Below the pieces are notes generated by a model, which saw only the letters and a list, made by a program, of their open reading frames with translations, searched no databases and was not told the origin of the DNA. The position numbers and the translations under genes were made by a program. Positions 39,015 to 62,121 of a stretch of 64,000 bases of DNA are shown in pieces; the stretch's first letter is position 1; each line of letters opens with the position of its first letter. Source of the DNA: Natronolimnobius sp. AArcel1 (GTDB lineage: Archaea > Halobacteriota > Halobacteria > Halobacteriales > Natrialbaceae); assembly GCF_011043775.1 (NCBI RefSeq), contig NZ_JAAKXY010000006.1, positions 372,001-436,000 on the forward strand. The letters run 5' to 3'.

Positions 39015-40136
39015 ATGCCTGATACGACCGACTTGAGCGCCAGCGCAGCCGAGTCGACTAACTCGAACGTTCCGGTCTCGCCGACGACCGCCGCGACTGA
39101 ACTGCTCGAGCCAGCTCGTGTCCAGACACTTCCCGGCGATGCGGAGTTCGCCCTCTGTCTGACCCACGATGTCGACCGGCCGTATAAGGGCATCCGGTCG
39201 TTGTACTACGCGACACAGGACCGTCCCGCCTATCACCTCCGGTCGGCACTCGATCGCTCGAATCCCTACTGGCAGTTCGAGGAAATCATGGAACTCGAGG
39301 CCGAGCTGGGTGTTCGGTCGGCGTTTTACTTCCTGAACGAACAGCACCTCCTCGCAGACCGCTCGCCTCGAGAGTGGCTCTCGCCAGCAAATTGGGTGCA
39401 ACACCTCGGCCGGTACGACGTGACCGCGCCCGAGATTATCGACGTAATCCAGACGCTCGACGAGGGCGGCTGGGAGGTTGGCCTTCACGGCTCGTATCAC
39501 ACGGCAACCGACCGCGAGCGACTCCGTGAAGAGAAAACCCTCCTCGAGTCCGTCCTCGAGAAACCGATTCGTGGCGGACGCCAACACCATCTGCGACTCG
39601 AGAACCCCGAGACGTGGCACCATCACCGCGCAATCGGCCTCGAGTACGACGCGAGTTTAGGCTCGAGCACTGAGTGTGGCTTTCATGAGGGCTATCACCC
39701 GGTGCGGCCGTTTGGCGATGAGTTCGTCGTCTTCCCACTGACAGTGATGGATCAGGCGCTGCCGGATCCCGCGACGACGTTCGACGCTGCTCAGCGGACC
39801 TGCGAGCGACTGCTGCTCGAGGCGATGAACCACGGCGGCGTGATGACCGTGCTCTGGCATCCGCGCTTTTTCAACGAACAGGAGTATCCCGGTCACCGGG
39901 CGCTGTATCGGTGGGTCGTCGAACGCGCACTCGAGTTAGGTGCGTGGGTTGGCTCGCCCGGCGAGTTCTGTACGGCGCTGGAACTCGAGAGCGAACGCGA
40001 GCGCACGCGCGAACGTGAGCATGAACTCGAGCATTCGACACACGAGCGACCACAGTCGAGTCAGCACGCCGAGCAGAACCGCCTCCTTGAGGAGGCGCCA
40101 CCAACTGGTGTCTCAGCGGTCCGAGGTGAACCATGA
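39015..40136 (+). CDS. Polysaccharide deacetylase-fold protein
   Basis: This 373-residue protein carries a NodB-like domain. Motif 1 is LTHDVDRPYKGI (residues 49-60), and motif 2 HGSYH is at 158-162 with the two His spaced HxxxH. RQHHLRLENPETWHHH and a late HPRFF fit the rest. It resembles the family linked to bacterial exopolysaccharide clusters. The C-terminal 60 residues are a charged Glu/Arg-rich tail. I used the ATG at 39015. Its stop overlaps the next start (ATGA), coupling it to a surface protein. Confidence 0.85.
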   Translation: MPDTTDLSASAAESTNSNVPVSPTTAATELLEPARVQTLPGDAEFALCLTHDVDRPYKGIRSLYYATQDRPAYHLRSALDRSNPYWQFEEIMELEAELGVRSAFYFLNEQHLLADRSPREWLSPANWVQHLGRYDVTAPEIIDVIQTLDEGGWEVGLHGSYHTATDRERLREEKTLLESVLEKPIRGGRQHHLRLENPETWHHHRAIGLEYDASLGSSTECGFHEGYHPVRPFGDEFVVFPLTVMDQALPDPATTFDAAQRTCERLLLEAMNHGGVMTVLWHPRFFNEQEYPGHRALYRWVVERALELGAWVGSPGEFCTALELESERERTREREHELEHSTHERPQSSQHAEQNRLLEEAPPTGVSAVRGEP

Positions 40137-41494
40137 ACGAGAAAGTGATCGCGGTTGCACTGGTCGCGCTCGTTGCCTTTGGCGGGATCGCGGCAGTGGC
40201 CCAGCCAGTTGCAGCCTCGAGCACCCAACCGTCGGCAAACGACGAGCATGTCGTCGAACAGGACGGCGAGTGCTACCCGATCGAGGCACTGACCTCGAGT
40301 GGCACTGTCGAGGCGTTCTATGACTACCGGAACCACGAGACGCATCCGGAGGATGTTGATCGGATGTACAGTTCCTATGGCACTGAACACCTACAAGAGG
40401 ACAATACGAGCGTGCTGTTCCTCCACGAAGGCACTGATGGAATGAGCCTCGTCATGATCCACGACCAGGTTGATGGCGACACGACGGGTGGCGTTGCAAC
40501 CTTCGAGATTACGGGTGCGCCTGCCGAGGCAGAGTGGGTCGTCCAGGACGACCTCTACGATAGTGAGGAGAACATGGTTGAGTGGTACGACGAGGATGGC
40601 TGGCTCGGTGCTGACTGGATCTGGAGCGAGGCGCGAACCGACGGCGGCGCGATTCAGGGTGGACTCAACGATGACTTCGCCATGACGATTCACCCAGCGT
40701 TCAACGAGGACGCGGCACTCTACGATGTTGAAGACATTTACGACCCGGACTTCCACGAGAACGGAACGATCGACGACTGGGAGGTCCTCTCGGGCGATAG
40801 TGATGACCCAGACCGGACCGACCTCGACCTCGACGAGCCAGTGACGATCCGAACTGGATCGTGTGATGGCCCATCGGTTAGCTACGACCAGCCGGGTGAC
40901 GGCGACACAGACGAACTCACCGCCACCATCGACGGCGCGGACGCGTCCGACGAGATCGCACTCCAGCCACTCTCCGGCACCGATTCGGTCGCCACGTTCG
41001 ACGACATCACGATGACCGACGTCGACGGCAACGGCTCCGTAACGTTCGCAAACGACGCTGATGGCCTCCCCGACACCCCGAGCGATATCGAGACGTTCTC
41101 CTCGCTTTCAGTCACCAGTGACTCACTCGAGGACTCGAGCGCGACGGTCTCGTTCAGCGTCGATGCGGATACGCTCGAGGAACACCAGCTCTCGCCGGAT
41201 GAGGTTGCACTGTACGAAGCCGATGGCGACGAGTGGGAACAGGTGCCAACGTCGGTCACCGACCAGACTGGCTCGGAGTATCGCTACAGCGCAGACATCT
41301 CGTCGCTCGAGGGGCTCATGATCGGCGAGCAACAAGAACAGTTGACTGACGATGATTCGGCGGACGGGACGGACTCGAGCGGCGCTGATGACGATGGTGC
41401 ATCCTCGATGCCTGGCTTCGCGGTCGGCAGCGCACTGAGCGCCCTTGCGGTACTCTGTGTTGCACTCGCCGCCCGCACGCGGTTGAGCCAGTAA
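40133..41494 (+). CDS. Secreted surface protein with PGF-CTERM anchor
   Basis: This 453-residue exported protein begins with signal peptide VIAVALVALVAFGGIAAVAQ (cleavage perhaps after VAA). It ends with an acidic linker and the tripartite tail MPGFAVGSALSALAVLCVAL followed by RTRLSQ. The PGF motif and hydrophobic helix predict archaeosortase-dependent lipid anchoring. The second half (about 260-420) has immunoglobulin-like features resembling the region often found before PGF tails. Coupling to the deacetylase gene suggests a shared surface role. Confidence 0.85.
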   Translation: MNEKVIAVALVALVAFGGIAAVAQPVAASSTQPSANDEHVVEQDGECYPIEALTSSGTVEAFYDYRNHETHPEDVDRMYSSYGTEHLQEDNTSVLFLHEGTDGMSLVMIHDQVDGDTTGGVATFEITGAPAEAEWVVQDDLYDSEENMVEWYDEDGWLGADWIWSEARTDGGAIQGGLNDDFAMTIHPAFNEDAALYDVEDIYDPDFHENGTIDDWEVLSGDSDDPDRTDLDLDEPVTIRTGSCDGPSVSYDQPGDGDTDELTATIDGADASDEIALQPLSGTDSVATFDDITMTDVDGNGSVTFANDADGLPDTPSDIETFSSLSVTSDSLEDSSATVSFSVDADTLEEHQLSPDEVALYEADGDEWEQVPTSVTDQTGSEYRYSADISSLEGLMIGEQQEQLTDDDSADGTDSSGADDDGASSMPGFAVGSALSALAVLCVALAARTRLSQ

Positions 41495-41503
41495 CGACTC
41501 CCG

Positions 41504-41519
41504 TATTTTCTACTTATTT
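41504..41519 (+). terminator. T-rich tract between convergent genes
   Basis: TATTTTCTACTTATTT lies between the PGF-CTERM gene and the convergent phosphoesterase gene. Archaeal transcripts often stop at T-rich tracts; here it could end plus-strand transcription. The call rests on composition only. Confidence 0.35.
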
Positions 41520-42869
41520 GCTTGGAGAGTGTGTTTCGTCGGCGTACTCGAGTGACGACTCCGAGTGCTCGAGGGGGACGACCGATCGGTCAGGAAGCGT
41601 CGGGGTCGGGGCGCGCCCGAGCGTGAGCAGTCGTTCGGTGCGCGTTAACTCCTCGGCGCTTGGATCGGATTTTGCAATCTCTTCGTACTTGACGACGATT
41701 GCGTCGTCGGCCGTCGCGATGCGGACGACACACAGCTGATAGGACGGGTAGTAGACTGGCGGGAGCACGCCAGTGACCACGTTGCGTCGATGTAATCGCT
41801 TGAGCCACGTGCCGGTGTTAACGAGTACGCGATCGTCAACCCTGTTCGTCGTCGGCCGGTGGGTATGACCGTAACAGAACACCGCTGTCTCCGGGTGTTC
41901 GGAAAACACCGCTCGAGCCGCCTCGATGTATGGCGTGTCAGGGTCGACGGTGAGATCGCCCTCGAGGACACCGAAACGGTCGACCGTGTGGCCGAAATCG
42001 CGAAGGATGAGATACGCAGGGATACTGACGACGAGCAGGGAGGAAACGACGGCCACGGTGGCAACGAGCAGGAAGTGGACGGCTTCGCCGACAAGTCCCA
42101 GTTGCGCCAGGACGGCATCTGCTGTTTCGACTGGCAGTGTCCACACTCCGGCGACGTCGAGTACGGCAAGCACCGCCAGAATCACACTAAGGTTAAACAA
42201 CAGGAGAAACGGCACCAGACTGTATCGCAAGAGTGGATTCATCTCCCGATAAAAGTACTTCGAGAGCAACCAGCGCGGGACGCGCTCAGTCGGTGTCACC
42301 GCTTGCACGTCTTTGAGCCAGTTGTATCGCCCACGCTCTGAGAGGCGCCCAGCACGACTCGTCACGAGCGTATTGTAATAGTATCCAAGCGGCGTCTCGT
42401 AGGGATTGCCAAAGTCTTCGAAGCGATTGTTCTCGTCCTGCTGGTGGCCGTGTTCGAAGTGAATGGTTCGCTCGCCGATCGGACGAGTCATCGACGTAGC
42501 CTGCACGAGTGTGATGTTGTACTTCGCGAGCAGGTCGACGTACTCATCGTGGGCAGCAAGTTCACTGTCGTGATTGCCCGGCAAGAGCGTAATCGGTATT
42601 TCCGCACCGGTCGCACGCAACTGCTCGAATAGCTCGGGATAGCGCTCGATCAGCGCCTCGAGTTTAGCAATGCCAGTGTGTTCAGTCACTTCCCACAGGC
42701 CGAACGCATCGCCGTTGATTACCAACTCGGCGTTCTCGTCAGTCATTTCGAGGCGCTCGAGAAAGGCGAGCAACTCCTCGAGAAAGTCGACGGTTCCCAG
42801 CTGTTCGTCACCGCCCATGTGGAGGTCACTGATGACGTAGTAGACCGGGTCGCTGGGGGAATCTGCCAT
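41514..42869 (-). CDS. Membrane-anchored metallophosphoesterase
   Basis: This 451-residue calcineurin-like phosphoesterase has motifs in order: SDLHMGGD (Asp15, His17), NGDAF (Asp54), LPGNHD (99-101) and FEHGHQQ (140-142). Two hydrophobic helices follow (about 217-240 and 264-288), and then the last metal motif YGHTHRP (334-339). All metal ligands are present, but a membrane hairpin is inserted between the fourth and fifth motifs. The active site should face the cytoplasm if both halves fold together. It resembles the LpxH/UDP-sugar pyrophosphatase group. The substrate might be a lipid-linked phosphate of the glycan locus. Confidence 0.85.
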   Translation of the reverse strand: MADSPSDPVYYVISDLHMGGDEQLGTVDFLEELLAFLERLEMTDENAELVINGDAFGLWEVTEHTGIAKLEALIERYPELFEQLRATGAEIPITLLPGNHDSELAAHDEYVDLLAKYNITLVQATSMTRPIGERTIHFEHGHQQDENNRFEDFGNPYETPLGYYYNTLVTSRAGRLSERGRYNWLKDVQAVTPTERVPRWLLSKYFYREMNPLLRYSLVPFLLLFNLSVILAVLAVLDVAGVWTLPVETADAVLAQLGLVGEAVHFLLVATVAVVSSLLVVSIPAYLILRDFGHTVDRFGVLEGDLTVDPDTPYIEAARAVFSEHPETAVFCYGHTHRPTTNRVDDRVLVNTGTWLKRLHRRNVVTGVLPPVYYPSYQLCVVRIATADDAIVVKYEEIAKSDPSAEELTRTERLLTLGRAPTPTLPDRSVVPLEHSESSLEYADETHSPSK

Positions 42870-43094: not shown

Positions 43095-44213
43095 TCAGTC
43101 GCCGCCAACACCGACCGATTGTGCCGGTTCGTGCGCGGCCACTTGACTGAACTGTGAGAGTGACTCGAGTCCGTCGACATAGCCCTGCTCGGTTGCAACA
43201 TCAACGATCACGTCCGTCAGGTTGACCTTGTCCGCGAGGAAGGCGTTACGCCGACGACGCCAGGTCTCTGCCGTATCGTCGGCCTCGAGCAACGTCGTCG
43301 CCTGTTCGATGATCTCATCCGCCGAGGCCACGTTGTGGATCAGGCCCTGATTCTCGAGTTCGACGAAGTTGCCCATGTCGTCTTCGCCGACGAACGAGTT
43401 CGAGCGGATCGCAGGCGTCCCGAGCAGTGCAGCCTCGGTGACCATCGTCTGCGTGTCTGCGACCAGTAGGTCTGCCTCGGCGAGTACGTCGTGGAGCAGC
43501 GCCGGGTGGAGATCAAACGGCCGGGCTGGCAGCCCCTCGAGGTCAGCGTCACCACCTTCGTCGGAGACGAGCACCGTTGCGTCCTCGTCGAGTCGCCCAA
43601 TAATCCGTTGCTGATCCTCGCTCGTGATCCCCTGTTTGCCCACGTCGTGCTGGGAGCCAAAGGCGTTGAGCCGGAGGATTGCGTAGGACTCGTCGGTCTC
43701 GAGGCCGAGTCGGTCGCGGACCGAGGGGTTCGACTCGTACACTTCGGGGTGAAGGTACGCACACTCTTTGAGGCCGGGGAAGACGTGGTGATCCTCGCCC
43801 AGATCCTTCCGGAACGTATTCGGCGTCAGAATTGTGCGGGCAAACGGCGTCGAGATCGTGTGATCGAACGACGCCGGCTCGGAGTCGATAAGCAAGACAG
43901 TCGGAGTTCGCGTTACTGCGCCGGTGTGGGCTGCATACGCGCCCATCCCGAAGATGAGATCCGGGTCGAATCGTCGCGCGCTCGCAATTGCGCGGACGTA
44001 ATGGGCCGGCAGTTGACTCATCAGCGACCCTTTGGAGGTGTCACAGGAGCCATAGACCGTGTGTGGAAGATCGTACCACTCGAGCAAATCCGTCGTGCAG
44101 GTGTATTCCCGCGCGAGGACGAGTACGTCGTGGCCACGGTCACGCAGCCGTTCGACGGCGTGTTTGTACAGATGAACGTGCGCCGGGGTGTTAGTGAAAA
44201 ACAGGTACTTCAT
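43095..44213 (-). CDS. DUF354 family GT-B-fold protein
   Basis: This 372-residue protein of the DUF354 family has a GT-B-like fold related to UDP-GlcNAc 2-epimerases. It begins MKYLFFTNTPAHVHLYKHAV, followed by LRDRGHDVLVLAREYTCTT. Further marks are LIFGMGAYAAHTGAVTRTP, SEPASFDHTISTPFA and ADLLVADTQTMVTEAALLG, the last being the nucleotide-sugar-binding region. I used the ATG ending at 44213. Members occur in glycan clusters, but the reaction is unproven. Confidence 0.9.
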   Translation of the reverse strand: MKYLFFTNTPAHVHLYKHAVERLRDRGHDVLVLAREYTCTTDLLEWYDLPHTVYGSCDTSKGSLMSQLPAHYVRAIASARRFDPDLIFGMGAYAAHTGAVTRTPTVLLIDSEPASFDHTISTPFARTILTPNTFRKDLGEDHHVFPGLKECAYLHPEVYESNPSVRDRLGLETDESYAILRLNAFGSQHDVGKQGITSEDQQRIIGRLDEDATVLVSDEGGDADLEGLPARPFDLHPALLHDVLAEADLLVADTQTMVTEAALLGTPAIRSNSFVGEDDMGNFVELENQGLIHNVASADEIIEQATTLLEADDTAETWRRRRNAFLADKVNLTDVIVDVATEQGYVDGLESLSQFSQVAAHEPAQSVGVGGD

Positions 44214-44347
44214 GCTGAAAGGCACCGTAGACTGTCTGTCTGGATGCCGAAGGTTTGTTATCTGGCTCGTACCGCCAGTTTTGGCCACACAAACAACCGG
44301 CAGTCATCCCCTGTCGGCGCGATTCGAACGGTAGCAGGCGTATAATA

Positions 44348-45700
44348 ATGGGTTCTCCGGTGGATCACCCACTGATGCAGTCACAAGGACTCGGACGTTC
44401 CGACCCCACCACACAGGCCGAGACGGATGGCCGTCCTCGAGCCGTCGATCACTATCTCTCAGTTCTGGATTCGACGCTCGCGTACGCTCGTCGCCGTGAC
44501 TATGCCGGACCGGATTACGGTGACGGGATGAGTAGCAAGCTGTTACAGGCTGCCCCAATCGAAAATCGCTTCGTGAATCTGGTCGTCCAGGAACTCGTCA
44601 AACGCAGTCCGGTCAATATCCGCCCACTGTTGCGCGTCGAACACCGCCGAAATTACAAGGGAACAGCGCTGTTTACGATGGCAAATCTGAACTTCGACAC
44701 CTACACGAGCGCCGATGAGGGCTCGAGGCGGCGGTTCGATCCACGAGCTGAAGCCGACCACCTTGCCCAGTGGCTCGTCGACGAGAGCCTCGAGGGCTAC
44801 AGCGGCTTCTGTGGCGGCCATCGACACGAGATCCAACACTTCCACACAAAGGGCGTTCCGAGCGACCCGGATATTGTCTCGACAGCCTACGCCGTCAAAT
44901 CGCTCTTGCAGGCGACGGAACACGGACTCGGCGACGAGTACGCCGAGACCGCTCGTAGCGCGGTTGAGTTCCTCATCGAGGATCTGGACTACCGAGAAGT
45001 CGAGGACGGCGCGAAAATCGACTACCATCTGAACCATCCCGACGACTCCTATACACTCAACTCCGCGGCCCTCGGCGCGGGAATGCTGATCGACCTCTAC
45101 GAACATTTCGGCGAGGAGGATCTGATCGAGCGTGCGACAAATATTCTGGACCACATCGCGGCCAACCAGACAGACATCGGCGGCTGGCCATATCGCATCC
45201 CCGCCGACGCCTCACATCTGTCGATGGACAGCCATCACAACGGCTTCATCATCGAGGTCTTCCAGCGCTATCGTGACGTGGTTGACGCCGACCGCTACGA
45301 CGACACCCTCGAGTCTGCACTCGAGTTCTACCGCGAGGAGCTATTCGAACTCGACGGCGCGCCGAACTTCGACGAATCCAACGCCTACCCGCGTGACATT
45401 CACGCGAGTACGCAAGGAATACTGGTCTTTACCCGGGAGGGTGACCTCGAGTTCGCCGACCGAATCCTGCGCTGGGTGCTCGCGAATCTGCAGGTCGATG
45501 GCACGGAAGGCGAGTTCTACTATCGGCAGTATCGCCATCACACGAAACGCGTCACGCTGATGCGGTGGTGTCAGGGCTGGATGTCCTATGCCATGTCGGA
45601 GTTCCTGCTGGCCTGCCAAACCGACGGCGTACAGGAGACAGCACTCGACTCCGAAATCGAAGTCGAACAACTCGAGTCAACGCCACAGCCAAACGCATGA
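44348..45700 (+). CDS. Alpha/alpha-toroid (six-hairpin-like) protein
   Basis: This 450-residue soluble protein has repeated helix-loop units of the alpha/alpha-toroid type, with segments such as DIVSTAYAVKSLLQATEHG, SYTLNSAALGAGMLIDLYEH and IGGWPYRIPADASHLSMDSH. These barrels are found in glycosidases, glycan epimerases and terpene cyclases. No catalytic residue can be assigned with certainty. Homologues are sometimes mislabelled as ABC permeases, but no membrane helix is seen. It overlaps the GT4 gene as ATGA. Confidence 0.72.
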   Translation: MGSPVDHPLMQSQGLGRSDPTTQAETDGRPRAVDHYLSVLDSTLAYARRRDYAGPDYGDGMSSKLLQAAPIENRFVNLVVQELVKRSPVNIRPLLRVEHRRNYKGTALFTMANLNFDTYTSADEGSRRRFDPRAEADHLAQWLVDESLEGYSGFCGGHRHEIQHFHTKGVPSDPDIVSTAYAVKSLLQATEHGLGDEYAETARSAVEFLIEDLDYREVEDGAKIDYHLNHPDDSYTLNSAALGAGMLIDLYEHFGEEDLIERATNILDHIAANQTDIGGWPYRIPADASHLSMDSHHNGFIIEVFQRYRDVVDADRYDDTLESALEFYREELFELDGAPNFDESNAYPRDIHASTQGILVFTREGDLEFADRILRWVLANLQVDGTEGEFYYRQYRHHTKRVTLMRWCQGWMSYAMSEFLLACQTDGVQETALDSEIEVEQLESTPQPNA

Positions 45701-46893
45701 GCGAGACAACCGCCGACACCGAACGCGCAACCACCGACGCCAGCGCCGAGACAGACGCGCGAGCGCGCTGGCGAGCGCCAGTCGAGCCGATGGGCGACAC
45801 CGATGCAGCGGGCGCTCGAGTGCTGGTACTGACCGGACTCGGGCACAAGAACGCTCTCCACTACGGGCCGCTTGCAGACATCGCCGAGGAGATGACGCTC
45901 GTTTGCCTCGACCCGGACCACGTCGGCGAGATCGAGAACGCAAACTACGTGCAGGTGCCCGACTTCGGGCCACGAATCCTGCGGGTGCTCATGCTCTTTG
46001 TTGTCGCTCTGCTCGAGGGCTATCGCAACGAGTACGACACCGTCGCCTCGATTTCGCTGGTGCCGTACGGCCTCTACGCGCTCGCGTTGAAGAAGCTCTA
46101 CGGCTATCAGGCGTTTCTCGGGATCATCGGGATCGACCTCGATCACCACGCCGAGCAGTGGTACGGCGCGGGGCCGCGCTGGGCGTTCAGACAGTTCGAT
46201 GCCGTCTCCGTTCCCGGCTCCGACCACGCCGAGCGCCTCCTCGAGTATGGTCTCGAGCGGGATCGCATCCACATCTTGACGAACGCCATCGATACCGACA
46301 CCTACCACCCGATCCCGGCCGACATCGACACCGCGTACGACTTCGTCTGGGTTGGCCGCTTCGGCCCCGAGAAAGATCCCGTCCTGTTCGTCGAGGCGCT
46401 TGCCGAACTCGAGGCCCGCGACACCGACTTTCAGGCAGTCATGGTCGGCAACGGCACGCTCCGAACCGAGGTCATCGATGCGGTCGCCGCCCACGGCCTC
46501 GAGGATCGGATCGACTTCGCGGGCTGGGTTGATGAACCGCTGTCGTACTACCGCCAGTCGGATACGTTCGTGTTGACCTCACGTCGGGATGCCCTGCCGC
46601 TTGCGATGCTCGAGGCGATGGCGTCAGGTCTGCCCGCTGTCGTCCCCGATATCGGCTCGGTAACTGACGCGGTCACAGACGGCGAAAACGGTGTTGTCGT
46701 CGACAGTCGACACCCACGGGCGCTCGCAGCGGCGATGGAACGCTGTCTTGACGACGAGTATCGAGGCCCGCTCGCCGAGGCCGCACCCGACGTTCGTGAG
46801 TCAGTTTCGATGGACGAGGCCGAGACGGACTGGCGAAACATTCTCACGACGCTTGGAAACAAGAACACAGCCGTCTCGAGCACTCGAGACTGA
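45697..46893 (+). CDS. Glycosyltransferase family 4 protein
   Basis: This 398-residue GT-B glycosyltransferase uses a nucleotide sugar as donor. It has a short acidic N-terminus, then VLVLTGLGHKNALHYGPLAD and SVPGSDHAERLLEYGLERD. FVWVGRFGPEKDP marks the start of the C-terminal Rossmann domain, and SRRDALPLAMLEAMASGLP is the donor-binding E-x7-E region, with its first Glu replaced by Asp. It is translationally coupled to the toroid gene before it. The sugar and acceptor are unknown. Confidence 0.92.
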   Translation: MSETTADTERATTDASAETDARARWRAPVEPMGDTDAAGARVLVLTGLGHKNALHYGPLADIAEEMTLVCLDPDHVGEIENANYVQVPDFGPRILRVLMLFVVALLEGYRNEYDTVASISLVPYGLYALALKKLYGYQAFLGIIGIDLDHHAEQWYGAGPRWAFRQFDAVSVPGSDHAERLLEYGLERDRIHILTNAIDTDTYHPIPADIDTAYDFVWVGRFGPEKDPVLFVEALAELEARDTDFQAVMVGNGTLRTEVIDAVAAHGLEDRIDFAGWVDEPLSYYRQSDTFVLTSRRDALPLAMLEAMASGLPAVVPDIGSVTDAVTDGENGVVVDSRHPRALAAAMERCLDDEYRGPLAEAAPDVRESVSMDEAETDWRNILTTLGNKNTAVSSTRD

Positions 46894-46906: not shown

Positions 46907-46920
46907 GTTTTTGGTTTTTT
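46907..46920 (+). terminator. T-rich tract after the GT4 gene
   Basis: GTTTTTGGTTTTTT lies 14 bases after the GT4 stop. Such double T-runs are typical termination sites in archaea. It separates the toroid-GT4 pair from the next gene, which has its own start at 47049. Confidence 0.5.
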
Positions 46921-47048: not shown

Positions 47049-48068
47049 ATGGATATCGAACGACTGACGCTCGAGGAGTGGGGCGATGCGCTGCCACGAT
47101 CCGGTATCGAGGTGTTTCACGACCCGGACGCACTCGCTGTGCTCGATGCACACACTGACGCGGAGATGCGACTCTACGGCGCGTCCAAAGGCCAGCAGGT
47201 CGTCGGCCTGCTACCCGTATTCGTCGACCAGAAATCGGTCGGCCGCACAGTGTTTTCGCCACCGCTCTCCCTTGGCGTGCCACGACTCGGCCCGGTTATC
47301 AACCCCAACAGCCCGAAACAGCGCAAGTGGGAGCGCATCAACAGCGAACTCGCCGACGCGGTGATGGCCGACCTCGAGACCGACAAGCGCTCGACGCTGT
47401 TCCGGATGACCTGCCCCGTCGGCTACGAGGACCCGCGACCGTACAGCTGGAACGACGCCTCGATGGAGCCGAAGTTCACCTACGTCGTCGACCTCGAGGA
47501 CGCCCAGGATATCGAGGATGCGATGAGTGGGTTCAGCAAGAGCCTGCGAAACGAGATGCGCCGCGTTGACGAGGTCGATCTGACAATCGAAACCGAAGGC
47601 ATCGACAGCGCCCTGCGGATCTACGACGATGTCGTCGCCCAGTACGAAGAGTACGACGACACCGCGCCAATGTCTCGCCAGTTCGTTCGCGACCTGCTCT
47701 CGAGTCTGGACGACGACCGCTGGCGTGTCTACGTCGCCCGCACACCCGACGGCGAGTACAAAAGCGGCATCCTCTCGCTGTTCTCGAACGATCTGGCATA
47801 CTACTGGCAGGGCGGCGTCGTCGCCTCCTACGGGAACGTCAGCGTCAACAACCTCATTCACCGCACGATCTTAGAGGATATCGTCACCGATCCCGCCCTC
47901 GAGTCCGTCTCCGGCTACGACCTCGTCGGGGCCAACACCGAACGCCTCTGTGAGTACAAAGGCAAGTTCAACGGCGAGTTGCGCCCCTACTACGTCGTCG
48001 AATCGTCCGGCCTCGAGATGACGCTCGCGAAGTCAGCGTATCAGCGCGTCTCCGGGACGTTCAAGTAG
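47049..48068 (+). CDS. FemAB/GNAT-like transferase, copy 1
   Basis: This 339-residue protein of the FemAB-like double-GNAT type in bacteria adds amino acids to cell-wall peptides or modifies exopolysaccharide. Seen segments are FSPPLSLGVPRLGPVINP, EPKFTYVVDLEDAQ and GYDLVGANTERLCEYKGKFN near the end. It shares that end pattern with the protein at 56360, so the two are paralogues. I chose the ATG at 47049 because a 46-codon extension looks non-coding. In archaea the acceptor is unknown. Confidence 0.85.
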   Translation: MDIERLTLEEWGDALPRSGIEVFHDPDALAVLDAHTDAEMRLYGASKGQQVVGLLPVFVDQKSVGRTVFSPPLSLGVPRLGPVINPNSPKQRKWERINSELADAVMADLETDKRSTLFRMTCPVGYEDPRPYSWNDASMEPKFTYVVDLEDAQDIEDAMSGFSKSLRNEMRRVDEVDLTIETEGIDSALRIYDDVVAQYEEYDDTAPMSRQFVRDLLSSLDDDRWRVYVARTPDGEYKSGILSLFSNDLAYYWQGGVVASYGNVSVNNLIHRTILEDIVTDPALESVSGYDLVGANTERLCEYKGKFNGELRPYYVVESSGLEMTLAKSAYQRVSGTFK

Positions 48069-52636: not shown

Positions 52637-54457
52637 TTAGACCTCCTCGGTTGCACCAGGGACGTAGTAGAGGTCAAACTCGCCGTTGGATTGAATCCGA
52701 TTCACGCCGGGTTCGTTTTCGATGGCGTCTAACTCGCTCTCGGTGTAGCGAAGTTCGTCGTAGACCGTTAGCTCGCGGTCGCGATCGACTTGCGTGAGTG
52801 CGAGATAGCGGTCGTCTTCGTACTGGCCGGAGACGCCATCTCTGAATTCATCAGCTTGCACATCTCTGTGTTCCCAGCTTCGGTCTTCGTTTCCATTGAT
52901 CGCATCGTCGTATCGGTTTGGCCCATCACGCAGCCCCAGGAAATCGATCTCGTCGTCCTGAGAGTCGAAGGCAGTCTCGTAGCCACTCATCGTCGTCTCG
53001 CTGACGTGCGGTGAGGCGTTGTAGGTGTACGGCGACGGGAAGATTGCGACCAGCGACAGCACCAGTAAAACGGTAAAGCCGATAGCCAGCAGCGGACCAG
53101 CGGAGACCGCGACTGCCGGACGCCCGCTGCGGAGCCGTTCCGTAAGCCCATAGATCGCAACCGCACCGAGTATCGTCAAGAACACCATCATCAGCCCGAA
53201 CACACGGAAGTACATACTCGAGCCAGGGGCGAAGAAGTATGCGCCGGCGACGGGAACAAGGACGATCAGCGCAACGGCGAAGTACGTCGTTTCAGCGGCG
53301 ATTCGATCGACCCACGGTGAATCTCGGAGGAAGATGAGTCCGAGGATGAGCCCGCCAACGAGGGCCGAAAAGACGAGATGGACGCTGAAGAGTTTGAGGA
53401 AGATCTCACCTAAACTGCCGCCAATTTCAGAGAGGGATGCTCCCTGGGTTGCCACCTGTTCGCCAGCTGAGCCGCTTCCACCGAGGAAGAAGTCGAATGC
53501 CGCACTGAAGAAGTATTCGAACATCCCGCCGAAAAAGCCGTGATCGGCCGACCAGAGCAAGAAGAGCCCGATCAGGAACACTGTGTGTCCGTACACGGGG
53601 GTCTGTCCGGCAATCGTTCCCTCAGACGCGATCCGTCGTGCGAGGAACTGAACGGCACAGATGGCGACGAAGGCAGCGATCAGGTGGACGACGAGTTGCG
53701 GGTGGTAGACAACGGCGGCAACTGCCACCAGCGAAAAGGCAGTTCCGATCGCAGAGACTGTCGCCAACGACTGGTCCGAGCGGACGTACTTGACGAACAA
53801 GAACAACAACAGTGCAGAGAAGAAGACTGCCTGCGACATCGCGTGCGCGGACAGATACATCGAGATTGTCGTAATCGGCAGGAGCAAGAACGCGGCAAAC
53901 GCAGCGATGACCGCCGCACGGTTGTCCTCGGTGATCACACCGACACAGAGCGGGACGAACACACAGAACACCAGCATTGAGACCAAGACGACGAACATCA
54001 ACGACCGCGAGAGCGGAATCCCGGTAACCGAGTTGATGAACACCGTCGTCACGTGAATTGCGGGATAGAACAACTCGAACGGCGACATCGTTCCTTCACT
54101 GATTCCGCGCGCCCAGCCGAGATGCGTCAATGCATCGTAGTGACCCTGAAAGCGATACCCCCGGATAATCGGGAGCGCAGCGAAGACGACCATTGTGAGT
54201 CCACCGAGTACAACGGCGAACGGACGCCCGCCCCGAGGCCCGTCCCCGAACGGGACGAACGCAATGGTCAGGGCAACGGCCATCGCGACCATGAGCCCGA
54301 CCCAGACTGCCGACGGCGTCATCGCATAGATCGATACCTCGTATCCAGTCGCTGGTGACCCACGGGCAACGAGTGCACTCCCGGCAAGCGCCAAAAAGCC
54401 GATCGAGAGTGCCACCTTCCGGAGGAGTCCGTCGTTGATGGCTGACTGATGTGACAT
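52637..54457 (-). CDS. Large multi-span membrane protein, GT-C-like
   Basis: This 606-residue protein has about 13 hydrophobic helices and a hydrophilic C-terminal domain of about 130 residues. An extracytoplasmic loop after the second or third helix reads RGYRFQGHYDALTHLGWARG, with an acidic residue in the place where GT-C glycosyltransferases (AglB, ArnT relatives) carry their catalytic Asp. On this basis and by context I suggest a membrane glycosyltransferase or a polymerase; the family is not certain. The start is at the ATG ending at 54457. Confidence 0.7.
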   Translation of the reverse strand: MSHQSAINDGLLRKVALSIGFLALAGSALVARGSPATGYEVSIYAMTPSAVWVGLMVAMAVALTIAFVPFGDGPRGGRPFAVVLGGLTMVVFAALPIIRGYRFQGHYDALTHLGWARGISEGTMSPFELFYPAIHVTTVFINSVTGIPLSRSLMFVVLVSMLVFCVFVPLCVGVITEDNRAAVIAAFAAFLLLPITTISMYLSAHAMSQAVFFSALLLFLFVKYVRSDQSLATVSAIGTAFSLVAVAAVVYHPQLVVHLIAAFVAICAVQFLARRIASEGTIAGQTPVYGHTVFLIGLFLLWSADHGFFGGMFEYFFSAAFDFFLGGSGSAGEQVATQGASLSEIGGSLGEIFLKLFSVHLVFSALVGGLILGLIFLRDSPWVDRIAAETTYFAVALIVLVPVAGAYFFAPGSSMYFRVFGLMMVFLTILGAVAIYGLTERLRSGRPAVAVSAGPLLAIGFTVLLVLSLVAIFPSPYTYNASPHVSETTMSGYETAFDSQDDEIDFLGLRDGPNRYDDAINGNEDRSWEHRDVQADEFRDGVSGQYEDDRYLALTQVDRDRELTVYDELRYTESELDAIENEPGVNRIQSNGEFDLYYVPGATEEV

Positions 54458-54976: not shown

Positions 54977-56020
54977 TCAGTCGTCGTCAGCGTCGACATC
55001 GTCGGTGATCTCAGTCCAGAAGTAGCCGTAGCGGTAGGCGTTCTCTTCTGACGGCTCATCTGGGACCTCGTCGTCGTACAGTAAGACGGCGATTCGGACG
55101 TCGCCGGATTCAGCGTCTGGCGTGACCGAGAGTTCGTCCTGTGTCGTGTCGCCGTCTGCAAGCTGATAGTCGACGTGCTCGTGGTCCGTTCGGTCGAAGA
55201 CCTCGCCGTCACTGACCCACTGCTCCTGGACGACGGCGGTGTACTCCGTTGACTCACCTTCCTGATTCTCGAGTGCAACGGCAAACGGGATGTCCTCGCC
55301 AGAGTCGACCGTCGAGGTGTAGTTTGCGGCGACGAGTTCGCCGGCGTCGTCTTCGGCAAGCAGTTGGAGGTCAGTGTACTCCTCGGCCGATTGTGGGTCG
55401 GCAAGTGCATACCCAACGGAGGTCAACGCGATCAGCAGACTCGCGATGAGGACGACGTTCGCGGCGGCGTGAACGGTCGAGTTCGTCCCCAAAATTGCGG
55501 TTCGAACGGCACGCAGTCGCCGAGTAAACGAGAACTGATAGCGCTCCGTGCGAGGAACGCGAATCCGCCTGATCGCTGCGACACACACCCCAAGCAGAGT
55601 GTATACGCTGACCACGGCGACGATAACCGTCTGCGAAAAGCCAAGCGATGCGATGGCGAGGCCGAGTCCGAGCAGCGGAATCACCGCCACGCTCAGTCCA
55701 AACGCAAGTGCAACGCGCTCGAGGTCGGAGAACTCCTGTACCTGTCCGATGAGTCCGGTCGCCGTAACTGAGTGGGCAGGGGTCTGTCGTGGAAAGAGCG
55801 CTGACACTGTTGCATACCCCGGTGCGAAGAACAACAGCGGGAAGCCAATTGCGGCACGGACAATCGGTGACCCGATGTCGACGACCGCAAGGACAATGGC
55901 GGCGACGATAACGAATCCGGCGGTAGTGATCAGGTCAGTCGGTAACTTCCCGAGGACGTGTTTGCCTCCCTGTCGAACGGCTGTAAACGGATGTGATGGC
56001 TGCGATGTACGATCTGTCAT
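54977..56020 (-). CDS. DUF1616 family membrane protein
   Basis: This 347-residue protein has four N-terminal membrane helices in two pairs and a fifth hydrophobic helix at about residue 190-210. Marks of the family are GFPLLFFAPGYATVSALFP and ERVALAFGLSVAVIPLLGLG, then an extracytoplasmic beta domain (QLLAEDDAGELVAANYTSTV, ending in a Glu/Asp tail). DUF1616 proteins often lie in archaeal surface-glycan loci; the activity is unknown. Confidence 0.88.
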   Translation of the reverse strand: MTDRTSQPSHPFTAVRQGGKHVLGKLPTDLITTAGFVIVAAIVLAVVDIGSPIVRAAIGFPLLFFAPGYATVSALFPRQTPAHSVTATGLIGQVQEFSDLERVALAFGLSVAVIPLLGLGLAIASLGFSQTVIVAVVSVYTLLGVCVAAIRRIRVPRTERYQFSFTRRLRAVRTAILGTNSTVHAAANVVLIASLLIALTSVGYALADPQSAEEYTDLQLLAEDDAGELVAANYTSTVDSGEDIPFAVALENQEGESTEYTAVVQEQWVSDGEVFDRTDHEHVDYQLADGDTTQDELSVTPDAESGDVRIAVLLYDDEVPDEPSEENAYRYGYFWTEITDDVDADDD

Positions 56021-56359: not shown

Positions 56360-57370
56360 ATGAGCATCGAGGTTCGCGTCGCAACCGAGGACGACCTCGA
56401 GACATGGAATCGTCACGTCAGCCGTTCGCCACAGGGGACGCTCTGTCACGAACTCGAGGCGCTGCGGGTGCAAGCCGAGCACTCCGGTGCAACCCTCCAT
56501 CCGCTGATTGGGTTCAAAGGACAGGAGCCAGTCGGTCTCTTTCCCGTCTTCGAAATCTCGAAGAAGTTCGTGACAACGGCGTTTTCGCCGCCGCCACACC
56601 TTCGGGTGCCGTATCTCGGGCCGGCGTTTCTGAACATGGAAAAGCTGAAACAGCGAAAGCGCGAGCGACGACGTCAGCGCTTTATGGACGGCTGTTTCGA
56701 GTGGATTCAGGACGAACTCGCCCCGAAGTACGGCCACGTCCGCACCTCGACGGCGTTCGAGGACTCGCGCCCATTCAAGTGGAATCAGTACGATGCGACG
56801 CCGGAGTACACGTACGCGGTCGACATCACGCCCGAGACAGACGATCTGTTGATGACGTTCAGCAGTGACGCACGAAGTAACATCCGCAACACCGACGAAA
56901 ACGACTACGAGGTCACCGTCGGCGGCGACGAGGAAATTCGCCTCATCCACGAGCAGGTGAAAAACCGCTATGAGTCCCAGGATATCAGCTTCGGCGTCCC
57001 CGTCGAGTTCATCCTCGACCTCAATGACGCCGCCGAAGACGGTGCCGTTCGCCCGTACACACTCCGAGTCGACGACGAATTCGTTGGCGGGATTCTTGCC
57101 CTCGAGTACGGCGACCGAACCGGCCGCTGGATGGGCGGCGTTCGCACCGATACCGACGTCGACGTGCCGACGAACGACCTGCTCGACTGGGCGATCATGG
57201 AAGACGGTCACGAGCGCGGCCTCGAGACCTACGACCTCGTCGGCGCAGATACACGCCGGATCAACCGCTACAAGGCGAAGTTCAACCCCGAACTCGAGAC
57301 CTACTACGGCCTCGAGTACGGCAAGTGGGGAATGCGCCAGCTGGCGTCGATGTACGATTCGGTCAAATAA
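56360..57370 (+). CDS. FemAB/GNAT-like transferase, copy 2
   Basis: This 336-residue paralogue of the gene at 47049 begins MSIEVRVATEDDLETWNRHV. It shares FSPPPHLRVPYLGPAFLNME, TPEYTYAVDITPE, TFSSDARSNIRNTDENDYEV, and the end YDLVGADTRRINRYKAKFN. The double-GNAT layout and length (about 340) match FemAB-like proteins of bacterial exopolysaccharide loci. The two copies flank the beta-helix, flippase, GT-C-like and DUF1616 genes. Confidence 0.86.
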   Translation: MSIEVRVATEDDLETWNRHVSRSPQGTLCHELEALRVQAEHSGATLHPLIGFKGQEPVGLFPVFEISKKFVTTAFSPPPHLRVPYLGPAFLNMEKLKQRKRERRRQRFMDGCFEWIQDELAPKYGHVRTSTAFEDSRPFKWNQYDATPEYTYAVDITPETDDLLMTFSSDARSNIRNTDENDYEVTVGGDEEIRLIHEQVKNRYESQDISFGVPVEFILDLNDAAEDGAVRPYTLRVDDEFVGGILALEYGDRTGRWMGGVRTDTDVDVPTNDLLDWAIMEDGHERGLETYDLVGADTRRINRYKAKFNPELETYYGLEYGKWGMRQLASMYDSVK

Positions 57371-57542: not shown

Positions 57543-58658
57543 TTACTCTGTATCGTGACTGATGAAACTCGTTTTCCAGTTTGTCGGATCATCGACTGCC
57601 CAGTCGTGCTCACCGAGCGTCCACGTGGTCTCATCGGCCATGAGCGGGCGGACCATCTGCGTCGTCGTTTCCGTAATCGGTGAGAGCGGCAGTGTGTTAT
57701 CCGGAAGGAAGCCACGATTCATCAGCGTCTCGCGGGGGATCGACCCGCCGAGTGCGACGATCAGGTCGACACGTCGGTTGTACTGACACACGGCAGCTAG
57801 AATGTGGTCAAGCACGGCTGTTTGCTCACCGTTGCGTGTGAGCACATCGAAGATGCTCGTCTTTGTGAGCCCGCCAGACGTTTGCGTGCCTGTGATAACT
57901 GCAGCAACGTCTTGCCCATCTACTGTCGCGAGATACGTCGAATACTCCCAGTTTGGATTTTGCAGCCGCCATCGCAGAAGTTGCTCGTCACGGGGGACGT
58001 GAAACACGTCGGGCCTCGAGTCGTGATACAGCGACGTAAGCCGGTTAATTGGGGCCGTTTCGTGGCGCTCGAGCGTGACCGCTCTCTTTGTCTGTCCAAG
58101 CTGTGAGAGCGTTGATCGCGCGGCTGCGTAGCCGTTCGCAAGCGGTGTCGCTGCGCTTGCGGCTAATTCAACTGCTCGTCCAGTGCCGGCAGACCGAGCA
58201 ACTGCACCGGGATTTTGCATTCGGTAGTACTGGTCTTTTTCAGCCACGATTCGCCAGCCGAGTTTCTTGTTGCCGGCTCGAGTTCTGCTGTTGGGATAGT
58301 TAAAACAGAGATCGGGTGCGCCCGTCTGATAGTCTGCAATCGCGGCTTCAGTCATTCGCGTGAACAGTCCCTGTCGACGATGATCCTCGTGGACCATCGT
58401 ATCGCATGGTTGGAACGCGAGCAATGTTTCTCGGTCGGCTCGAATTGGAAGTGCGAAGAACGATCGAGCGCCGACGATCTCTCCGTCACCTTCCGCGAGA
58501 TAGATCGGAACGTGGTCCGCGTAGGGATTGTTTCGGTACTTCCAGGCAAACCACTCGTCGTCCGGACGAGAGCCGAACACAGATTCGTACAGCGAGCAGT
58601 AGCCCTCGAGGTCGGTCGCGCGGAATCGTCGAATCGTATATGTGTCTGTTTCAGCCAT
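57543..58658 (-). CDS. GNAT family acetyltransferase
   Basis: This 371-residue protein has an N-terminal GNAT domain, TIRRFRATDLEGYCSLYESV. PCDTMVHEDHRRQGLFTRMT contains the acetyl-CoA pyrophosphate loop RRQGLF. A second, GNAT-like half runs from about 200 (FHVPRDEQLLRWRLQNPNWE). Length and the split arrangement resemble EPS-associated acetyltransferases. The start overlaps the upstream deacetylase stop by 8 bases, so the two are one transcript: one enzyme could add and the other remove acyl groups. Confidence 0.87.
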   Translation of the reverse strand: MAETDTYTIRRFRATDLEGYCSLYESVFGSRPDDEWFAWKYRNNPYADHVPIYLAEGDGEIVGARSFFALPIRADRETLLAFQPCDTMVHEDHRRQGLFTRMTEAAIADYQTGAPDLCFNYPNSRTRAGNKKLGWRIVAEKDQYYRMQNPGAVARSAGTGRAVELAASAATPLANGYAAARSTLSQLGQTKRAVTLERHETAPINRLTSLYHDSRPDVFHVPRDEQLLRWRLQNPNWEYSTYLATVDGQDVAAVITGTQTSGGLTKTSIFDVLTRNGEQTAVLDHILAAVCQYNRRVDLIVALGGSIPRETLMNRGFLPDNTLPLSPITETTTQMVRPLMADETTWTLGEHDWAVDDPTNWKTSFISHDTE

Positions 58659-59586
58659 GGTGGGTCTCCAGTGTTCGCTGCGTGACGTCTGCCATCGTTT
58701 CGACGGTGATCCGTCCGCGGTCGCGTTGTTCGGCGATGTAGGAAATGACCGCCCGGAGGCGCTCGAAATCGTGCTCGTAGACGAGGTTGTTCGGATGGAG
58801 CCAGATATGAAAGAGGCCAGATTCCTCGGCTGCGGCGTCGATACCCATCTTTGCCTGTCTCACCGTTGGGTCTTCCTCGCCAACTCGCAATGCGGCTTTT
58901 CGAGCGAGTCCCTCGAGTGAGTAGAGGTCGAACGAGGCGGGAATGTTGACGAGGCCGTATTCGTCCACAGTTGGGTCGACGAGTGGCGGCGGCGTGTCAC
59001 CGGTGGTATAGGTTGCGAACTTTTTGGGGTGATACAACAGTGAGTCTTCGTATGCTCGTGGTGGTGAGACGCCGCGGTAGGCGCTAAATCCGTGTGCTGC
59101 GAGTTTCTCTCGAAAGCCAACGACGTTACGCGGAAAGACGAACGACGAACACGAGAGGCTGGTATCTCGAGCGAGTTCGGTACAGCGCTCGAGTTCAGCG
59201 TCGATAACCTCGGCATCGGTTCGGTCATCGTCGAACAGGACATGAGAGAACGAGTGACAGCCGATTTCGTGATCGACGCGTGCATTGTCAACTGCATCGA
59301 CGAGGTCTGGTGCGAACCAACGATCGCGGTCCGCACTGTCGGCCCCAGGATCTGAATCGAACCAGCCGGTCCCACCTGCAGGGTGGTCCATGTGATCGCC
59401 GTCGCAATCCTCGAACAGAAGATGGCCGACTACAGCCCACGTTGCGGGAACTGAGTAGTGATCGAATAGGTCAATGATCAGTTTCCACGCGTGTCGGCTA
59501 TTCTTGATTCGTCGCTTCGGGGGAAATCGCATATCGTGAAATCCCCAGGCAAGTTCAGAATCGAGAGAGACGACAACTGTGCCCAT
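58651..59586 (-). CDS. Polysaccharide deacetylase-fold protein, second in the locus
   Basis: This protein of about 311 residues starts MGTVVVSLDSELAWGFHD, where SLDSEL stands for the TFDD motif. The metal-binding pair follows in HEIGCHSFSHVLFDD (H...HSFSH), with SCSSFVFPRNVVG and a final HIWLHPNNL. This arrangement resembles the deacetylases of bacterial EPS loci. An alternative start 28 codons upstream (ending at 59670) cannot be excluded. It overlaps the GNAT gene. Together with the gene at 39015 it brackets the locus. Confidence 0.84.
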   Translation of the reverse strand: MGTVVVSLDSELAWGFHDMRFPPKRRIKNSRHAWKLIIDLFDHYSVPATWAVVGHLLFEDCDGDHMDHPAGGTGWFDSDPGADSADRDRWFAPDLVDAVDNARVDHEIGCHSFSHVLFDDDRTDAEVIDAELERCTELARDTSLSCSSFVFPRNVVGFREKLAAHGFSAYRGVSPPRAYEDSLLYHPKKFATYTTGDTPPPLVDPTVDEYGLVNIPASFDLYSLEGLARKAALRVGEEDPTVRQAKMGIDAAAEESGLFHIWLHPNNLVYEHDFERLRAVISYIAEQRDRGRITVETMADVTQRTLETHHG

Positions 59587-59876
59587 ATCCGGAGGAAGCA
59601 GTTCCGAGTGATTAGTTAAGGTGATGCTTCCAATTCGAACGTCGACAGTTCGGGGAGGGTGAAGCTTCAATTCTCATAGTTTGGGACGAAACAAGAACTG
59701 GTGAGATAAGCAACACATTTCTCAGCAGTCCAGACCAACTGTTTCTGTGAAAAATGTAGATGGAACACCATTATCCGTGATCAGGGTACTAATTCACCGC
59801 ATGCTCGAGAACTTCCTGCTAAAAGTCCGTCCAATGCGCCATAGGTCGACAGTCGATCGCCGTGGCGGGGGGCAGC

Positions 59877-60507: not shown

Positions 60508-62121
60508 ATGGACGACGGAACCTCCTTACAAACGCTGCTCGTCGGCGTCGACGCCGCGTGCGATCGGGTGCTCGCACCGATGTTCGACGACGACGAGCTG
60601 CCGACAATCGAGTCGATCTACGAGCAGGGGGTCAGTACCCCCCTCGAGTCACAGATTCCACCCTGGACGGCGTCTGCGTGGCCCTCTCTCTACACGGGGA
60701 AGAACCCCGGTAAACACGGTGTCTTCGGCTTTCTCTCGTTCGACGGCTACGACTGGGATGTCGTCAACGCAAGCGACGTGCGCGAACGAGCGATCTGGGA
60801 ACTGCTCGACGAACACGATATGACGAGCGTCGTCGTCAACGTTCCCGTTACCCATCCCGCTCGAGCGTTCGACGGTGCGTTGATCCCCGGCTATACCGCC
60901 CCAGAAGACCCAGAGTGCCATCCAGCCGGCCTGCTCGAGGAGGTTCGCGAGGAAATCGGCGAGTATCGCGTCTATCCCGACGAGGAGGCCGACGACCTCG
61001 GCAACGCCTACAGTGAGTGTGCGCGCATGCGCGGAGAGGCGTTTCGCTATCTTGCCGACGAGTACGACCCCGAGTTCGGTTTTATTGAATTTCAGGGGAC
61101 GGACTCGATTTTCCACAAAGAGCCCGACAACGACGCGGCGATCCGCCAGATCTATCGCGAGGTCGACCGCCAACTCGAGGAGATTCTCGAGACCCACGAT
61201 CCGGACACCGTCATCATCGCCAGCGATCACGGGATGGGGCCCTACGAGGGCCAGGAGTTCCGCGTCAACGAGTATCTTCGCCGCGAGGGCTTCGTCGAGA
61301 CGGAAAACGGCGGTGACGGCATGCCGACGTGGGCGACGGTCCGAGACGGGGCGCTCAAAGAAGGGACAGACGAGACGACACACAATCCGGGCGTTGCCGA
61401 ACGCGCGATGGCGAGTGCGGCCCGCGTTGGGCTCACCAGCCAGCGTATCGGTGCCGTCCTCGAGCGTCTTGGCATCGATGACCTCGTCGCATCGCACGCA
61501 CCGGCTAGTCTGGTCAGTGCGGGTGCAACACAGGTTTCCTTCCCTGACTCAAGGGCGTACGTCCGCTCGCGCATCGAACTCGGCGTTCGGCTCAATCTCG
61601 AGGGACGGGAACCGAACGGCGTGGTCCCGCAAGCGGAGTACGAAACTGTGAGGACGCACATCATCGATGCCTTGCGCTCTGCGCGAACACCGGACGGGGA
61701 GCCTGTGTTCGAAACGGTTCGCCCGCGCGAGGAGTACTTCCATGGCCCCGAAGCCGAACACGCCGTCGACATCGTCACGATCCCCGCGGACTTCGAACAC
61801 TTCATTTCGGCGACGCTGCGAGAGGAACAGTTCGGGCCGCCGACCGAGCCCTGGAATCACAAACTGCAAGGGACGTTCGCTGCGCGTGGCACCGCGATCA
61901 ATCAGGCACGCGGCCTCGAGGACGCACATCTCTTTGATGTCGCACCGACCGTCCTCGCCTCACTCGGTGTGCCGATCGACGAGCAGATGGACGGCCAGGC
62001 GCTTCCCTGTGTTGAGTCCTCAGGAGTACAATCCTATTCTCGACGTGGAGAGACCGACACTGTCGATACCGCCGATGCAGCCGTCGAAGACCGACTCGCA
62101 GATCTTGGCTATCTCGAGTAA
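60508..62121 (+). CDS. Alkaline-phosphatase-superfamily phosphodiesterase/phosphotransferase
   Basis: This 537-residue protein of the type I phosphodiesterase/nucleotide pyrophosphatase group has no signal peptide. Metal and nucleophile marks are LLVGVDAACDRVLAP (first Asp), QIPPWTASAWPSLYTGKNPG with the nucleophile Thr or Ser, and IIASDHGMGPYEGQEFRVNE with the Asp-His pair. A late Lys/His region follows. Such enzymes hydrolyse or transfer phosphate diesters. In a glycan locus it may process lipid-phosphate or sugar-phosphate; this is inference from position. Confidence 0.88.
   Translation: MDDGTSLQTLLVGVDAACDRVLAPMFDDDELPTIESIYEQGVSTPLESQIPPWTASAWPSLYTGKNPGKHGVFGFLSFDGYDWDVVNASDVRERAIWELLDEHDMTSVVVNVPVTHPARAFDGALIPGYTAPEDPECHPAGLLEEVREEIGEYRVYPDEEADDLGNAYSECARMRGEAFRYLADEYDPEFGFIEFQGTDSIFHKEPDNDAAIRQIYREVDRQLEEILETHDPDTVIIASDHGMGPYEGQEFRVNEYLRREGFVETENGGDGMPTWATVRDGALKEGTDETTHNPGVAERAMASAARVGLTSQRIGAVLERLGIDDLVASHAPASLVSAGATQVSFPDSRAYVRSRIELGVRLNLEGREPNGVVPQAEYETVRTHIIDALRSARTPDGEPVFETVRPREEYFHGPEAEHAVDIVTIPADFEHFISATLREEQFGPPTEPWNHKLQGTFAARGTAINQARGLEDAHLFDVAPTVLASLGVPIDEQMDGQALPCVESSGVQSYSRRGETDTVDTADAAVEDRLADLGYLE

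Follow-up and report, generated by a model that had tools for sequence, protein, structure and literature searches.

Known systems and the haloarchaeal locus

The presumed role of VimE in Porphyromonas gingivalis and Tannerella forsythia is to strip a 2,3-diacetamido-uronic acid of its C-2 acetyl group, and that of VimA is the transfer of serine or glycine; the match of VimA to the pepcterm_femAB model has been noted there, and sortase-linked sugars have been speculated on (PMC7468200). In archaea, the N-glycan of Methanococcus carries a diacetamido-uronic acid and a threonine amide, the attaching enzyme of which was not identified in a 2010 review (PMC2952790). In Natrialba magadii, the polysaccharide biosynthesis protein Nmag_3272 and the deacetylases Nmag_3271/3278 are listed as possible exopolysaccharide genes, with no pathway or mechanism proposed (PMC3403918). 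Here, we analyse a gene cluster of Natronolimnobius sp. AArcel1 that lies within a 64 000 nucleotide stretch (the window; G000:C6:372001-436000, genome 4.56 Mb) and encodes a VimE-like deacetylase (DEAC1), two VimA/FemAB-like transferases (FEM1 and FEM2, together FEM) and a putative sugar epimerase-like protein (TOROID). As archaea lack murein, their FemAB-like enzymes had no evident substrate. We consider it rather probable that the product of the locus is an exported surface glycan containing a modified 2,3-diamino-uronic acid. A preliminary description of the window had suggested an amino-acid- or acyl-decorated glycan; this is still the best reading, and the Wbp/Vim system (PMC7468200), which was not named there, provides its precise precedent. 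A limited literature search, covering few subscription papers, returned no paper on FemAB in haloarchaea and none that describes a Wbp/Vim-like pathway there.

Linkage to Wbp genes

Plasmid pHGLR2 of Haloferax gibbonsii carries a single gene run for an N-acetyltransferase, a DegT aminotransferase, a Gfo/Idh/MocA dehydrogenase of the UDP-N-acetylglucosamine (UDP-GlcNAc) 3-dehydrogenase family (E 4e-68), a nucleotide-sugar dehydrogenase, a wecB-type epimerase, DEAC1, TOROID, FEM2 and FEM1, accompanied by DUF354, GT4, YdjM and an asparagine-synthase-like gene. The pHGLR2 copies are 60% (DEAC1), 54% (TOROID), 51% (FEM2), 52% (FEM1) and 63% (DUF354) identical to the window proteins, and the same order is found, by annotation and gene order, on pHME505 of Haloferax mediterranei. 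Judged by homology, this WbpD-E-B-A-I-like, DEAC1, TOROID, FEM2, FEM1 run has the gene content of Wbp/Vim, and other families, too, have the Wbp-like set in the neighbourhood of DEAC1. Homologues of WbpA, B, D, E and I are encoded in the window's own genome: contig C6 has a WbpD-E-B-A operon (459.1-463.4 kb), 25 kb to the right of the locus, and contig C3 a WbpI-like (wecB-type) gene accompanied by a second DUF354. With phylogeny ignored throughout, a WbpB-like gene is present in 68 of the 70 genomes with DEAC1 versus 25 of the 49 without it (Fisher P 1e-9), and 26 genomes have it at most 20 kb from DEAC1, where about 1 is expected; a FEM gene lies within 20 kb of DEAC1 in at least 54 of the 70 (about 2 expected) and within 2.5 kb in at least 16.

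Resemblance of DEAC1 and FEM to VimE and VimA

VimE is the sole NCBIfam model matched by DEAC1, in 24/24 homologues (best E 2e-21), and an alignment reveals the motifs LTHDVD, R-x-H and LWH in both the DEAC1 homologues and a Parabacteroides VimE-like protein. As in the VimE neighbourhood, a VimA-like gene lies near DEAC1, and the DEAC1 relative of Parabacteroides distasonis adjoins a GNAT with a glycosyltransferase close by. FEM1 and FEM2, about 34% identical to each other, have FemAB-type GNAT homology (PF13480, E 1e-19), and the one NCBIfam model they match, with hits in 21 of 30 members, is TIGR03019 (pepcterm_femAB). A FEM profile finds the Parabacteroides GNAT beside the VimE-like gene (40 bits), a Nitratidesulfovibrio GNAT within an exosortase exopolysaccharide locus (119 bits) and, among solved structures, FemX (E 4e-3) and lipid II glycyltransferase (E 5e-5); profile searches for solved-structure relatives of DEAC1 and of DUF354 found none. 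The parallel drawn in the preliminary description, with bacterial deacetylase-FemAB-GT4 loci tied to sortase-like sorting, is borne out in sequence by the TIGR03019 match of FEM and by the Nitratidesulfovibrio locus.

Several observations weigh against a 2,3-diamino-uronic acid product. DEAC1 scores 76 bits with the VimE model against a curated equivalog cut-off of 440, with all 24 homologues at a similar level, and FEM2 and FEM1 reach 30 and 20 bits with TIGR03019 against a cut-off of 260; because these scores are far below the curated cut-offs, substrate specificity is not transferable to DEAC1 and FEM. Many DEAC1 homologues lack the second histidine of the NodB H-x3-H motif, and since this residue is not conserved DEAC1 is a putative deacetylase; it is missing from the Parabacteroides VimE-like protein as well. 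In addition, Wbp linkage is loose in Natrialbaceae (adjacent to >400 kb, or another contig), Wbp genes are also present in genomes without DEAC1, and the proximity and Fisher figures ignore phylogeny.

Gene content and conservation of the locus

Pfam and NCBIfam scans of the window proteins, and a structural model in the case of TOROID, recovered all the genes named in the preliminary description. The spans scanned were in part longer than the genes listed below: 38883-40136 for DEAC1, 43095-44288 for DUF354, 44255-45700 for TOROID, 45565-46893 for GT4, 46911-48068 for FEM1, 52637-54502 for DUF6541, 56348-57370 for FEM2 and 58651-59670 for DEAC2. Stretches of up to ∼40 kb around TOROID were compared in 31 genomes and all window genes were mapped; the counts below refer to 27 Natrialbaceae TOROID loci, several being lower bounds where the stretch ended within the locus.

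38129..38752, plus strand: YdjM-like membrane metal-dependent hydrolase (PF04307, E 3e-9); usual left neighbour, 14/27 loci, also in the Haloferax operon
39015..40136, plus strand: DEAC1, VimE-like NodB-type deacetylase, core (NF053580 VimE, E 2e-21); 22/27 loci
40133..41494, plus strand: SURF1, PGF-pre-PGF protein with signal peptide and C-terminal PGF-CTERM signal (TIGR04213, E 1e-7); 24/27 loci
41514..42869, minus strand: calcineurin-like phosphoesterase, neighbour, probably not part of the locus (PF00149, E 1e-9); 1/27 loci
43095..44213, minus strand: DUF354, GT-B-like putative glycosyltransferase, core (PF04007, E 5e-8); 25/27 loci
44348..45700, plus strand: TOROID, alpha/alpha-toroid, putative sugar epimerase-like enzyme, core (AlphaFold2 model, Foldseek)
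45700..46893, plus strand: GT4 glycosyltransferase (PF00534, E 7e-34); 23/27 loci
47049..48068, plus strand: FEM1, VimA/FemAB-like acyl or aminoacyl transferase, core (PF13480, Acetyltransf_6, E 1e-19); 25/27 loci
48260..50557, minus strand: SURF2, Tat-exported repeat protein by sequence signal and repeats, edge of variable centre; 19/27 loci
50806..52323, minus strand: Wzx-type flippase, variable-centre type (PF01943, E 2e-25); this type in 13/27 loci
52637..54454, minus strand: DUF6541, putative GT-C membrane glycosyltransferase (PF20176 and predicted fold); 20/27 loci
54977..56020, minus strand: DUF1616 membrane protein (PF07760, E 4e-92); 19/27 loci
56360..57370, plus strand: FEM2, second VimA/FemAB-like transferase (PF13480, E 6e-20; TIGR03019, E 2e-7); 16/27 loci
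57543..58658, minus strand: GNAT, half of an optional two-gene cassette (PF13527, E 5e-15); 1/27 loci
58651..59586, minus strand: DEAC2, NodB-type deacetylase, the cassette's other half (PF01522, E 1e-4, just under cut-off); 8/27 loci
60508..62121, plus strand: PDE, alkaline-phosphatase-fold type I phosphodiesterase, right end, adjoins FEM2 (PF01663, E 5e-32); 14/27 loci

The start of SURF1 overlaps the stop of DEAC1, and the probable ATG of GT4 at 45700 overlaps the stop of TOROID. Although some members are lost or replaced in certain strains, the order YdjM, DEAC1, SURF1, DUF354, TOROID, GT4, FEM1, (SURF2, WZX), DUF6541, DUF1616, FEM2, PDE is kept in 24 of the 27 loci, and almost every gene lies on the strand expected. 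Order and strand are conserved over about 20 genera, and the arrangement recurs in other families and on plasmids; more widely, TOROID is found in 44 and DEAC1 in 70 of 119 genomes. The genes thus form one evolutionary unit. The preliminary description had assigned all of them to one pathway and had named a lack of co-occurrence in relatives as the outcome that would make them chance neighbours; they do co-occur, and chance proximity, refuted for the core by this conservation, can practically be dismissed. It fits only the calcineurin-like phosphoesterase (41514-42869), found at the locus only in the closest relative, and the GNAT. As each recurs in 1/27 loci, both are neighbours and were rejected as pathway members, so that the single-pathway claim holds for the conserved core and not for these two genes; the GNAT and DEAC2 form a cassette that recurs elsewhere as a pair.

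Left and right conserved blocks flank a variable glycan-gene centre between FEM1 and DUF6541. Depending on the strain, the centre holds GT61, sulfatase-like, Gfo/Idh/MocA, ATP-grasp, nucleoside diphosphate-sugar epimerase, nucleotidyl transferase, methyltransferase and asparagine-synthase-like genes, and in some relatives Wzx types other than that of the window. With its differing glycan genes, the centre gives the locus a layout like that of a capsule or O-antigen locus. Loci with DEAC1 and FEM are plasmid-borne in Natronorubrum, Haloferax, Halobaculum and others (L145, L146, L151 and other plasmid records), which suggests possible mobility of the trait. A XerC/D-like tyrosine recombinase gene (window 62285-63478), kept there in 8/27 relatives, immediately adjoins the locus on its right and may mark a mobile border.

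Surface proteins, archaeosortase and AglB

SURF1 ends in an SMPGF-TM-R tail and most orthologues retain the PGF tail, features that identify it by sequence as a PGF-CTERM protein, the substrate type of archaeosortase A (ArtA). Since this tail is conserved, the locus as found in Natrialbaceae includes a protein of the archaeosortase A substrate type and in this respect contains a sorted substrate as exosortase/archaeosortase exopolysaccharide loci do. In most of the other loci examined that have the DEAC1-FEM pair, no PGF-CTERM protein was found, so the link is not universal. No sortase gene lies in the locus; ArtA, found in 8/8 genomes searched, is encoded only at C5:552 kb. SURF2 has a RRSYLK Tat-type signal and repeats, and both SURF1 and SURF2 look exported. 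The single AglB lies at G000:C1:435 kb; AglB is present in, and unlinked to the locus of, all genomes tested, and a separate flippase-like gene and a glycosyltransferase lie within the AglB island. Hence, the earlier statement that the window holds neither AglB nor an archaeosortase is confirmed and a surface-glycan locus separate from the AglB island is supported, but the implied absence of any archaeosortase tie does not stand, the conserved PGF-CTERM protein SURF1 having been overlooked.

A second protein with a PGF-CTERM-like tail and no Pfam family is encoded at window 2688-3959, and PGF-CTERM protein genes directly adjoin TOROID in another family (L100 14786-16267, L101 5368-6858). A tRNA-Arg(CCT) called by ARAGORN at window 48770-48864 sits within SURF2 on the opposite strand and has no Rfam match; it was rejected as a probable false positive. 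Elsewhere in the window are consecutive genes for SpoVR, DUF444 and two PrkA-type kinases (11106-18814), a penicillin-amidase family protein (21672-24200, E 3e-184) and, left of the locus and beside a GC-poor stretch, a homologue of AAC(3)-like aminoglycoside N-acetyltransferases (34508-35329, E 5e-59, below cut-off).

Predicted folds of TOROID and DUF6541

TOROID matches no family in Pfam or NCBIfam. Its AlphaFold2 model (pLDDT, predicted local distance difference test, 83) is an alpha/alpha toroid whose nearest Foldseek folds are cellobiose/GlcNAc 2-epimerase and GH76 (E about 1e-7), and on this model TOROID is likely a sugar epimerase. Agl32 and AglQ are toroid-type enzymes of AglB pathways (PMC13308652, PMC3827465). 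A comparison with Natronorubrum bangense lends no support to TOROID as the Agl32 epimerase: N. bangense has only one TOROID, located in this locus, and the TOROID profile reaches the open reading frame of the N. bangense AglB island taken to be Agl32 (a candidate only) with E 0.06. Second TOROID copies (L095, L102, L103, L106) adjoin complete WbpD-E-B-A-I runs and DUF354 with no DEAC1 or FEM in the stretch, possibly a parallel version of the pathway; second TOROID copies were rejected as AglB-island genes, lying away from AglB in the genomes checked. The model of DUF6541 (pLDDT 78) has exclusively GT-C proteins as top Foldseek matches (AftA, STT3, ArnT, PglB and AglB; best E 5e-6, TM-score 0.4-0.5), and DUF6541 is accordingly predicted to fold like the GT-C transferases.

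Proposed pathway and alternative explanations

The homologies, synteny, Wbp linkage and PGF-CTERM tail are read from sequence, the GT-C and toroid folds are predicted, and from these we infer a scheme with its substrates, the sequence of its reactions, the acceptor, the acyl donor and a biological role. The Wbp-type enzymes, whose genes lie 25 kb from the locus and on a further contig, would convert UDP-GlcNAc to a 2,3-diacetamido-uronic acid, from which DEAC1 may remove one N-acetyl group, after the presumed role of VimE. The freed amine would then receive an amino acid or other acyl group from FEM1/FEM2, after the presumed role of VimA. GT4, DUF354 and the strain-variable enzymes, with TOROID as the likely sugar epimerase, would assemble a lipid-linked oligosaccharide, which the Wzx flippase would turn outward and DUF6541 would then add to, polymerise or transfer; SURF1 (PGF-CTERM) and SURF2 are candidate surface partners or acceptors.

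That the locus is instead an ordinary exopolysaccharide or capsule locus, with deacetylases acting on the finished or lipid-linked polymer and FemAB-like proteins serving as plain acyltransferases, and with neither amino acid nor diamino-uronate, appears rather unlikely. The GT61, sulfatase-like, epimerase, methyltransferase and Wzx genes of the variable centre are typical of such loci, an extra deacetylase in one relative resembles IcaB/HfsH, and Acetyltransf_6 proteins often serve exopolysaccharide loci; the whole Wbp set, however, is contiguous with DEAC1 in Haloferax and other families, and DEAC1 specifically matches VimE. We also regard as unlikely a second, strain-variable N-glycosylation pathway in which the distant AglB hands the lipid-linked glycan to proteins, as in Haloferax agl5-15. 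The lack of linkage to AglB, the separate flippase-like gene and glycosyltransferase of its island and the conservation of DUF6541, a GT-C protein of the locus's own, all argue against this pathway, despite the presence of AglB in every genome tested, the alternative variable cluster of Haloferax (PMC5867893) and the diacetamido-uronic acid and threonine of Methanococcus N-glycans (PMC2952790).

A third explanation, which is improbable, takes the glycan as an anchor: as happens in the type IX secretion of bacteria, its aminoacyl sugar would be attached to the C-terminal end of SURF1 and other sorted proteins. Known haloarchaeal ArtA substrates are lipid-anchored, archaeosortase A is found in all eight genomes searched whereas DEAC1 is in 70 of 119, and the Haloferax operon yielded no homologue of SURF1. 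Nonetheless, SURF1 with its PGF-CTERM signal is a conserved member, and VimA-like genes occur alongside PorU, exosortase and rhombosortase systems (PMC7468200). In its most specific form, in which an N-aminoacyl 2,3-diamino-uronic acid covalently links a haloarchaeal surface glycan or glycolipid to the C-terminus of PGF-CTERM proteins with DUF6541 or archaeosortase as the transferase, we hold it very improbable; if true, it would give archaea an equivalent of the type IX linking sugar of bacteria. Our confidences in these explanations overlap, because AglB delivery and the C-terminal linker are each compatible with a glycan containing a modified 2,3-diamino-uronic acid.

With such a glycan, archaeal FemAB-like enzymes gain a specific predicted substrate, as their genes keep a constant place next to a VimE-like deacetylase gene and, in several families, belong to a full Wbp run. 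The suspected tie of aminoacylated amino-uronic acids to sortase-like surface systems would extend to a second domain of life, and the finding bears on the identity of the enzymes that link amino acids to glycans in archaea. The plasmid operon of Haloferax mediterranei and Hfx. gibbonsii renders the prediction testable.

Comparison with known systems

Like our proposal, the Methanococcus N-glycan pathway has an archaeal glycan that contains a Wbp-type sugar and bears an amino acid, but it is AglB-dependent and has the amino acid at position 6 (PMC2952790). Haloarchaeal N-glycosylation islands (AglB; Agl32, AglQ) likewise include a Wzx-type flippase, glycosyltransferases and an alpha/alpha-toroid epimerase-like protein, whereas the present locus is without AglB. 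Judged from gene numbering only, Nmag_3271/3272/3278 of Natrialba magadii may be its candidate counterpart. As exosortase/PEP-CTERM exopolysaccharide loci (TIGR03019, TIGR03108 and others) do, the locus combines deacetylase and GT4 genes with FemAB-like ones; ATP-grasp or amidotransferase genes are present in some relatives, and a FEM1 relative resides in the Nitratidesulfovibrio exosortase locus; in contrast to these, the sortase gene lies outside the locus (archaeosortase elsewhere) and the substrate within it is of the PGF-CTERM type. As in Wbp/Vim (PMC7468200), there is a VimE-homologous deacetylase and a VimA-homologous FemAB-like transferase with a glycosyltransferase near. Wbp-type nucleotide-sugar genes are shared as well, as is an asparagine-synthase-like gene in the Haloferax loci. 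Unlike Wbp/Vim, the locus is archaeal, has two FemAB-like proteins and the additional TOROID, DUF354, DUF1616 and DUF6541, and scores far below the VimE and TIGR03019 cut-offs; type IX secretion is not known in archaea. With DEAC1 and FEM below the curated cut-offs, we do not file the locus as a member of Wbp/Vim, and the analogy suggests that it works like that system.

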